NCBI RefSeq assembly: GCF_020921035.1
Contig: NC_063150.1
Span: 4,526,001-4,590,000, forward strand
Reading direction: 5' to 3'
DNA: 64,000 bases
From: Rhodamnia argentea
Lineage: Eukaryota > Streptophyta > Magnoliopsida > Myrtales > Myrtaceae
Positions within the stretch are counted from its first letter, which is position 1. Every line of letters starts with the position of its first letter. The position numbers and the translations under genes were made by a program. Of this stretch, positions 41,826 to 46,701 are shown piece by piece. Under the pieces are notes generated by a model. The model had not been told where the DNA came from. It saw nothing but the letters and a program-made list of their open reading frames with translations, and searched no databases.

Positions 41826-44182
41826 ATGGCCGGAAGGGAAGTTCGCGAGTATACCAATCTCAGCGATCCTAAAGGTAGGATCTCCGAATTTGTATTGATT
41901 TCTCTCTCTCTCTCTCTCTCGCTCGCTTGCTCACTCGTGTCCATTGCGGTTCGGCTCGCGGTTGTTGTTAATTTGATTTGTGGAGATTGTGGATTGAAAT
42001 GGAATTCTGTGTTTTCACGTGAAATGTGAGCAGATAAGAAATGGGGAAAGGGGAAGGACAAGATAGACGATGAGGACATCACGTTCCAGCGCATGGTCGC
42101 CAAGGTTAGCCCCATCCATCTCCCCTTGTCTTCGATCTCTTCTGAACCTGATCGAGTTAAGTTTTGTTTGGTGTGTATTACATACTAGCTCCTGGCCTCC
42201 ATAGTGCTTGGAACAGGTAGATGATCGTTGGTTCAATTTGGTTTTGTTTGCCCGGTGGGATGATGTTGAGGGGTGCAATTTTTGAGTCGTCCTTAGGATT
42301 TTCACAGAAAATATAGAAGATGATGGGATTAAGTGAAAGAAAGGCTCCAGTGGATTGAAGTGTGCTGTGCCTTAGGAACTACACAATGAGGTTGTCCTAG
42401 GCTGGGAACTTGGGTTCCTCTGTTCATAAGTTTTGGATGCAGAAAATTACGTGGTTATTGTTTGCAGTGATCATGTCTGTGGTATTGATGGAAGGAATAC
42501 GTGCATTAGCTCTTGGTTTACCTTTGGTATAAAATGTAGAAATATGCTAGTTAGTGCAATTTATGGTTCGTGCAGTGAAGTGATAGGTTATAAAGACTGT
42601 TTTTTAGTTAGTGGGTGGCGGGTTGGAGGCCAGGAGTCTGGGTCACCATACTAACCGTACTTCGGTCCTGATATCCATTAAGCTTTTGCATGAGGATGGT
42701 TTTCTGATAACATGCCCGGGCAGGGATTTTGGCCTTTACCGGGTGGCTGATGCAAGCAGATGCAAGAGGTTGCTGGAGAACGGGGAGGTTACCTTCATGG
42801 ACGAGGAGGTAGGCATAGTCGCAGACAAACTTTCCCTGCGGTGCACCCAGCGAAGTGATGGGAAAGCTTTCTCCTGGGTTTTTTTGCAGTTTTATATCTT
42901 TCCTTTTTCTTTCTACCTTTAGTTCCTAGAACTTTGTCTGGGTTTGATTGTGCAGCTCTGGACAGTGATGATCTGCTATATCTCAAGGAACAAATGGAAG
43001 CTGAAGAGGATGCAGAACGCCTCCTACGCCGCACTGAAAAACGAGCATTTGCTGCGTTTAAAATATCCTTCAATGTTTGTTCTTGTTTTTGGCGAAAATT
43101 CGATGCATTAATGTTCGAGCATTTAGATTGGCGAGGTTAATAATGTGAAGATGATGCTTATTTTAGGTTTTCATTGCATTTGAAGGAGTGTACTTCACTG
43201 TCGATATCGGCTAACAAGATTAGTATAGGTTTATACTAATATGGTAATTGTGCAATGAAAATTTCCTTACTTGTGCTGTTTGGGGTTGGGCATTGTATGA
43301 GGCCTTCATGGGATATTGTGCACGATTCTACCTAGGTGTTCTGGGGTTTTTGTGTTTTGGCTCTTCTTTGGCAGCAGTTCATTTTAGTTAATATCAAGAC
43401 AATCTAGCAGTGTGATCTCAGTTTCTTGTTATTGTTACAAAGTTGTATCTGCTTGAACAAAGTATATGTATTGGATTAATTGTTTCTTCTGGCATGTGGA
43501 TTGTAATTTTTTATTAGGATCTCTTTATTGTATATAATGATTAAGTTGCAATCTAAGTCCCCTTGACTGGGAGAACAGAGAGCTGATGGTCAGCTTTGTT
43601 GTTGTTAGAAACCTTGATTGGGATAGTTTTTCGACATCGACACACAAATTCTTGGCTTTAAAATGTCTCAAAATGCTTCTGTCATTGTGCATGTAGATGT
43701 AGAGGTCATTAAAAGAGGTAAAAAGGAATCCCTATCACAGTGCTTTCATCTGAGTCTTCTCCTTAATTGAAGGATACAGAGCTGCGAGTGTAGCAGATTC
43801 ATCTCCTGCATCCGTGCCTTTGCCTCTTCGTGTTGAGCCAAAGCCAAAGAGTGGGATCAGGTATTGTCTCTTTTCAGTGCATGTGCAAGGTTAGAATTTT
43901 TGGGTTTCTTCCTCTTCTTAACAGTTTTCAATATCAATCTAACGCAGGCAGCAAGATCTCCTCAAGAAAGTTGTGGAAATCAAGCCCAAGCGGCAAAAAG
44001 TTTCTAGCCCGCCAAATGTGAATCGGGCAGCCACCATATCCAATGATCATGTAACTTCTGAATCGAAGGTTGACCATTTGAAGGAGGAGCCCACGCCAAC
44101 AAAAGCAGAGGATAAAACTCAATCGTTAAATCCTGTTAAAGGCTTGCTGGGCATAGCATATGAAAGTGATGATGAGGAATGA
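41826..44182 (+). CDS. Small conserved nuclear-type protein, 197 aa (tentative FAM192A/Fyv6-like), with a U12 AT-AC intron
   Basis: Six exons: 41826-41874, 42034-42104, 42760-42808, 42956-43062, 43778-43860 and 43948-44182; sum 594 nt. Introns are GT-AG except the fourth, which runs ATATCCTT to AC and is a U12-type AT-AC intron. The protein has a charged amino terminus with GKGKDKIDDEDITFQRMV, a glycine-rich GERGGYLHGRG, an acidic helix LKEQMEAEEDAERLLRRTEK, the block AFAAFKRAAS created across the AT-AC intron, PKPKSGIRQQDLLKKVVEIK with a KPKRQK nuclear-localisation-like patch, and an acidic end GLLGIAYESDDEE. The order (FxxMV, acidic helix, KxKxxxQxxLL, Ser/Asp/Glu end) resembles FAM192A/PIP30 and Fyv6. 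That link is inference and needs a profile search. Confidence 0.85.
41901..41922 (+). repeat. (CT)n microsatellite in intron 1
   Basis: A CT run starts about 25 bases after the first donor site of the gene at 41826. Confidence 0.9.
43063..43777 (+). other. U12-type AT-AC intron
   Basis: The donor is ATATCCTT (43063-43070), the exact U12 AT-AC consensus. A branch-site-like CTCCTTAAT lies at 43759-43767, about 11 bases before the terminal AC (43776-43777). No GT-AG pair at these positions restores the frame, whereas this pair joins AAA to AGA in phase 0. Confidence 0.9.
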
Positions 44183-45224: not shown

Positions 45225-46553
45225 CTACCGGCGGCAGACTACTCCCCGTCCATTGCTGAACTTGCTGGTGCACTCCATTGCGCTTGCCGTCTCCAATGCC
45301 AACGGCTTCACCTCCGCGGACGATGCTGTCTCTGGGTCGAAGATGCAGTACTGACAGTCCGCGGACGAGAGAGAGGACGTCCTGTACTTGTTCTCACCTC
45401 CCATGATCGGCATCGCGACTCCTCTCTTCACTGGGTTCTGGAAATCGGGCCTGTAGGTCTGCCCCAACACGCCCTCCACCCGCTCTGAGAGGTCGAAGAA
45501 CCTGAACTGCACCTCCAAGTGCGCGAAGCAGTCGTCAGCGGGGATCTGATAGTTGTGGATCCTGTCGTCTTCCTTGGTGATCGGCACTACGCTCGCAGAA
45601 ATTTCCAGGACGCCAGGAAGAGTCATGGTGATCGCATTCTGGTTAGCTGTCCGCTCCACGGAGAGAGGGCTATCCGGAGCCGACCAGCTCGAGAGGTGAC
45701 CGTCGGTGATGTGGACCAGCTGGTCGTCGTAGGTGAAAGCGAGCTGGTCAACTTTGTTGTCCCAGTGGGCAACCTTTTTGGCGGAGAGAGTGAAGGTGTG
45801 GCGGTTGAACCTGAGGCCTAGGGCTTGGATCCACGTGTTGTCGCGCTTCCTTCCCTCTGGGCGGCGACCAATGAACCGGGCATTGATTTGGAGGTTCTGG
45901 TCAGAGACGAGAGCGAAGTGGCGGTTGGTCTCTCCATGGAAGTAGAAGACTATACCGTCGCCTCCAATGAATCTGGGGTCGCCGCAAGCGGAGCCTACTC
46001 CATTGCAGTTGGCCGTGCGGTCTGCAATTAAAACACCAGCAATGGTTGAAATGGTTTAATCATGTTGCATTACTAGATAGTACACTAGTATCTTTGAGAT
46101 TAGTATAATTGCCATTACTCAAGAAATTGGATCTCTGACAGCATATAACTGCATGAATTTTTCAATGCTATGAATGGGACTAGCACATATATCTTCTCTG
46201 CATGGAAATGCATGAACAAGAGGGACAGAGAGAGACATACTCTTGCAAGTAGCTTCACATTTGGGGGTGTTGCAGTCAATAACACAGGCCTTGGCAGTTG
46301 GGTCAGCAGGCTTGAAGGATGGGCACTGCTGAGGGCAGGTGATGTTGTGCCCGAAGCACTTCGTGAACCGGTCATTGCACAGGACCGACTGGGGCGGGAA
46401 CACCTTCCCGGCCACGGCGGAGGGTGGAGGCGGGGCCAGCCCGGCTGGCGGCGGGGGCGGCGAGGGGTTGCCGTAGAGGTCGGCATTGCTGAGGGCGATG
46501 GAGCTCAACAACAACAGAAGTGTCATGAGCAGTGCAGCACTATGGGCCTCCAT
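45225..46553 (-). CDS. Root-cap family secreted protein, 369 aa
   Basis: Two exons on the minus strand: 46553-46241 and 46021-45225, GT-AG, sum 1110 nt. It starts with a signal peptide (LLMTLLLLLSSIALSNA) and a Pro-rich spacer (PSPPPPPAGLAPPPP). A Cys-rich region follows (CFGHNITCPQQCPSFKP, ACVIDCNTPKCEATCK), then the long Root_cap domain: CGDPRFIGGDGIVFYFHG, FALVSDQNLQINARFIGRR, KVAHWDNKVDQLAFTYDD and the carboxy end with YQIPADDCFAHLEVQF and ADCQYCIFDPE. The family is known from root-cap and related secretory tissue; molecular role is unclear. The signal peptide indicates export to the apoplast. A (GAATT)n run lies in the upstream region. Confidence 0.9.
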
Positions 46554-46701
46554 GTCTAACCTAAACTGTGTTACTAGGCAACACTAAGGGTTAGTGAAAG
46601 GCCTCAAGAAACTTGCTTCCCTACCCTACTCATTTATAGAGTGGGGAAAGAGAGATAGAATTGAAGTAAATGAAGTAAGCTGGAAAACCTTGGATCTGCT
46701 G

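Follow-up and report, generated by a model that had tools for sequence, protein, structure and literature searches.

The gene described here lies on the + strand of the window (the whole stretch of 64,000 nucleotides analysed), and its fourth intron is, to judge from its sequence, almost certainly an AT-AC intron of the U12 type. AT-AC minor-class introns are rare; they start with AT, end with AC and are removed by the minor spliceosome. The exon boundaries were set from reading frames and splice signals, giving a gene of six exons with a predicted protein of 197 amino acids (Table 1). The other four introns of the gene (introns 1, 2, 3, and 5) are all GT-AG and all end in CAG.

Table 1. Predicted exons of the gene and splice signals of intron 4, in window positions
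Feature	Position	Strand	Basis or remark
Exon 1, coding part, MAGREVREYTNLSDPK	41826..41874	+	Open frame, GT donor
Exon 2	42034..42104	+	Open frame; flanking introns 1 and 2 with ordinary GT-AG ends
Exon 3	42760..42808	+	Frame and splice signals
Exon 4, terminus ...RRTEKRAFAAFK	42956..43062	+	Frame and splice signals
Intron 4, predicted AT-AC U12-type, 715 nt, phase 0	43063..43777	+	Signals, frame test, chance calculation
Predicted U12-type 5' splice site ATATCCTTC	43063..43071	+	Possible pairing with U11 (+3 to +8) and with U6atac (UCCUU)
Predicted U12-type branch site TCCTTAAT	43760..43767	+	Presumed branch A 43766; possible duplex of TCCTTA with TAAGGA of U12
Terminal AC of intron 4	43776..43777	+	AG at 43778-43779 adjoins (ATACAG); frameshift if used
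Exon 5, first residues RAAS	43778..43860	+	Frame and splice signals
Exon 6 including stop codon, C-terminus GIAYESDDEE	43948..44182	+	Frame and splice signals

Splice signals and chance expectation

Intron 4 opens with ATATCCTTC and closes with TCTCCTTAATTGAAGGATAC; its coordinates, donor, and terminal AC are all as given in a preliminary description of the window, which had proposed an AT-AC intron of the U12 class at 43063-43777. The published U12 consensus comprises a 5' splice site |ATATCCTT and a branch site TCCTTAAC located 10-15 nt upstream of the 3' splice site (PMC2426677). The donor of intron 4 matches |ATATCCTT at eight of eight positions (43063-43070), while TCCTTAAT matches TCCTTAAC at seven of eight. 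The second A in CTCCTTAAT at 43759-43767 corresponds to position 43766 and lies 11 nt from the last base of the intron; this spacing is within the 10-15 nt range and agrees with the distance of about 11 bases previously proposed for a motif near the intron end. Joining exon 4 to exon 5 in phase 0 yields the anticipated block AFAAFK|RAAS, in frame with the 197-residue protein. At the predicted boundary, the GC content drops from 46.7% in exon 4 to 35.8% in intron 4, and a helix comprising residues 60-99, predicted in a single-sequence structure model of low overall confidence, spans the K92/R93 junction.

As a measure of how readily such signals arise by chance, we counted them in the genome (346.7 Mb, the same assembly as the window) and in simulations. 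The string ATATCCTTY has 11,005 sites on both strands of the genome as opposed to 7,093 for the reversed string and, because it is this common, the donor by itself proves nothing. The combination ATATCCTT...TCCTTRAY...AC, with the motifs 60-2000 nt apart, is present as a single pair in the window (one on the + strand and none on the - strand); simulations gave a mean of 0.09 such pairs per single 64 kb strand, with at least one pair in 13 of 200 simulations. When an in-frame junction of exons 4 and 5 is also required of the U12 donor/acceptor pair, a first-order Markov model of the window gives a chance expectation of 1.3e-5; this value was computed post hoc, with the feature already known. 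Consensus, spacing, and the chance calculation, together with snRNA genes in the same genome (see below), thus back the assignment of this AT-AC intron to the U12 class.

Alternative readings of the exon 4/exon 5 region

The preliminary description had also argued that only this pair of splice sites restores the reading frame, and in this it was wrong. Among donors at 42957-43159 and acceptors at 43650-43857 with five types of ends, 139 pairs are open and in frame (27 GT-AG, 43 GC-AG, 65 AT-AG, three AT-AC, and one GT-AC) and, therefore, frame does not prove the AT-AC intron. We considered in particular an ordinary U2-type GT-AG intron, in which exon 4 would extend to, for example, 43135 (GAG|GTTAAT), exon 5 would start from 43773 or 43797, and the U12 motifs would be coincidental. 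Both pairs keep the frame open, for a protein of 223 or 215 amino acids; moreover, by a crude scoring against a splice-site consensus, the donor at 43135 agrees with six of nine consensus positions (compared with 7, 7, 6, and 6 in the gene's other four introns) and the acceptor at 43797, a CAG, has a score equal to that of the intron 2 acceptor. However, this reading leaves the U12 signals unexplained, and a chance agreement of donor and branch site with the U12 signals, at the right spacing and in frame, is expected only ~1e-5 times. Moreover, the acceptor at 43773 is a GAAG, in contrast to the CAG of the four ordinary introns, the 73 nt added to the exon have an intron-like GC content of 35.6%, and the added residues include a Cys/Phe/Trp-containing run unlike the remaining protein. 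On balance, we regard a GT-AG intron at this position as improbable.

The two further readings that we weighed keep the AT donor at 43063 and appear to us highly improbable. The sequence ATACAG supplies both possible 3' ends, and AT-AN variants of U12 introns are described in PMC8280824, so that splicing from a U12-type donor could end mainly at the AG at 43779; because this shifts the frame and leads to a stop after 110 amino acids, such an AT-AG intron would be at most a non-productive alternative. Similarly, AT-AC introns of the major (U2) class, referred to as AT-AC type II, do exist according to PMC2831892 and PMC7072748, but the examples in sodium channel genes are stated to have a G at +5 in all cases (PMC2831892), whereas intron 4 has a C at this position, and the presence of a U12 branch site also argues against this class. 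An AT-AC intron of the U12 type remains the reading that we favor for intron 4.

Minor spliceosome components and a proposed course of splicing

In searches with Rfam models, in which the best candidates were scored, we identified in the same genome at least one U12 gene (87.3 bits; cut-off 53), at least one U11 gene (76.3 bits; cut-off 39), and at least three U6atac genes (94.9, 86.6, and 57.2 bits; cut-off 33). The predicted duplexes of U12, U11, and U6atac with their sites in intron 4 have energies of -6.7, -5.3, and -5.1 kcal/mol, respectively. Specifically, nt 4-9 of U11 are predicted to pair with donor positions +3 to +8 (with one G-U), AAGGA of U6atac with UCCUU of the donor, and TAAGGA of U12 with TCCTTA of the branch site; for U6atac, a cruder ungapped register score favored a different register than UCCUU:AAGGA. 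The genes for U11 and U12 and one U6atac copy are preceded by GTCCCACATCG, and a second U6atac copy by GTCCCACATAG; we take both to be the upstream element of plant snRNA genes. In the third U6atac copy (C8:21992287-21992412; L013:1501-1626), the 5' half is kept while the 3' half has diverged; no upstream element was found in the 120 nt inspected, and this copy is probably a pseudogene. The Rfam model for U4atac gave no match in this genome, and the same search gave none in 14 control genomes either; we attribute the missing U4atac match to limitations of the model or the search.

The genome also contains a gene of the CENATAC/CCDC84 family (three exon matches, best E 3.6e-33) and DIM1-family sequences (nine matches), among which DROL1 may be represented. 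CENATAC is described as being required for AT-AN minor introns in human cells (PMC8280824), and Arabidopsis AT-AC introns are reported to need DROL1 (as stated in PMC11039992); by analogy, intron 4 may need CENATAC/DROL1 like other AT-AC introns. A regulatory minor intron is mentioned for plant CENATAC (PMC8280824). Of note, the CENATAC-family gene of this genome contains a donor-like site ATATCCCTA (L016:1977); a search of the three CENATAC-family loci for a TCCTTRAY end, followed by either AC or AG, on the same strand was negative, and these loci thus provide no positive-control U12 intron.

By analogy with known minor introns, we propose the following course of events for the removal of intron 4 by the minor spliceosome. 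U11 would bind the 5' splice site ATATCCTT at +3 to +8, and U12 would pair with TCCTTA, leaving the branch adenosine at 43766 unpaired. Subsequently, U6atac would displace U11 at UCCUU, and cleavage would occur at AAA|AT and at AC|AG, the latter 11 nt past the branch, such that exons 4 and 5 would be joined in frame (FAAFK|RAAS). Retention of intron 4 would lead to a stop at 43138-43140 and a product of 117 amino acids, while use of the adjacent AG (43779) as the 3' end would give a frameshifted 110-residue product. Because both cut the frame short, the AC end would be the only productive one of these outcomes and, for the same reason, slow removal of intron 4 may limit expression of the gene.

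Identity of the encoded protein and significance

FAM192A/Fyv6 is a second-step splicing factor, and the preliminary description had tentatively assigned the window gene to this family. The assignment was not borne out. The full 197-residue protein has no match at E<=10 in Pfam, nor in the PDB, in which the solved PSME3-interacting protein is included. A fragment of residues 1-96 aligned to the FAM192A domain (PF10187) over residues 57-92 with 14.8 bits and an E of 0.034, which is below the gathering cut-off of 20.2 bits. When the same 96 residues were shuffled, four of nine copies gave sub-threshold Pfam matches, none of them to PF10187 (best E per matching shuffle 0.042, 0.32, 0.013, and 0.073), and the E of 0.034 is therefore not significant by itself. 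An alignment with hhalign gave the same gap-free register as Pfam with a probability of 0.8% and an E of 0.072. Importantly, a clear FAM192A-domain gene is present at another locus (contig 10, ~19.609-19.611 Mb), with 63.5 bits against PF10187 and an E of 5.9e-6 against PSME3-interacting protein 7w59_X in the PDB, and BLAST detected no significant similarity between this gene and the window gene. A search of the whole genome for the FAM192A family gave no match; because it gave none in 14 controls and none on the contig-10 gene either, it is uninformative. Given the sub-threshold Pfam score and the clear domain at the other locus, we rule out that the window gene is the FAM192A/Fyv6 gene, and the supposed fit of the intron class with a role in RNA processing loses its footing.

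We also considered a more remote relationship, in which the window gene would be an ancient, highly diverged paralogue of FAM192A/Fyv6 and a homologous intron position would be occupied by a U12 AT-AC intron in one copy and by a U2 GT-AG intron in the other. In both the Pfam and the hhalign alignment, the end of PF10187 (FAM192A/PSME3IP1/Fyv6) is matched, with no gap, by a stretch of 36 to 38 residues that reaches to residue 92 of the window protein, while the first two thirds of the domain are unmatched. In this register, which is not significant as an alignment, the phase-0 intron that follows residue 103 in the contig-10 gene falls at the place and in the phase of the window intron after residue 92. 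The common register and the aligned introns would speak against pure coincidence, but the contig-10 intron is GT-AG (GTATTG...TTTTTCAG) rather than AT-AC. Because both alignments end at residue 92 partly for the reason that the profiles end there, we consider this kinship unlikely. The structure model of the 197-residue protein contains helices at 29-47, 60-99, and 121-127 and nothing else of note (mean pLDDT 59.5, pTM 0.26). A literature search for NIP30 together with "U12-type introns" found nothing, and the window gene has no name under which it could be searched.

Searches for relatives and copies yielded neither a retrocopy nor a paralogue in the genome: among the best candidates scored, the six protein matches are the six exons of the gene itself. 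The 26-nt 3' end was matched at a single site in the genome when as many as three mismatches were allowed. In collections of prokaryote and virus sequences, 181 and 18 stretches, respectively, matched a peptide pattern and, with a query of 110 of the 197 residues, none was confirmed. The neighboring gene in the window (45225-46583, - strand) encodes a Root_cap domain (PF06830, E 1e-29) in a single open frame at 45225-46055; a frame at 46119-46583, upstream of the Root_cap frame, begins with a hydrophobic segment, continues with a proline-rich one, and has no Pfam match.

The predicted intron 4 resembles plant AT-AC U12-type introns in its donor ATATCCTT, its TCCTTAA branch site, the distance of 11 nt between branch A and terminal AC, the in-frame join, and the presence of the snRNA partners in the genome; it differs from them in the final T of the branch site, where the consensus has a C and which is its sole branch-site mismatch, and we saw nothing else unusual about it. 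In Arabidopsis, the number of U12 introns identified exceeds 200 (PMC2831892). According to PMC7367187, AT-AC introns account for 26% of this class in Arabidopsis, with lower shares in soybean (23%), rice (22%), and maize (13%). Because AT-AC introns make up about one quarter of the U12 introns in Arabidopsis, intron 4 would be a further case of a known kind of intron. More than 50 putative U12 genes are stated to encode proteins of unknown function (PMC4892727), and it is to be expected that one more AT-AC U12 intron should turn up in a gene whose function is unknown. A gene finder restricted to GT-AG introns would mis-model the window gene, and the AT-AC assignment fixes the predicted protein; beyond annotation, the finding has little import. 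If the kinship with FAM192A were true, the gene would be another case of paralogues with different intron classes at one position, and a relative of a factor of the major spliceosome would be under the control of the minor one.
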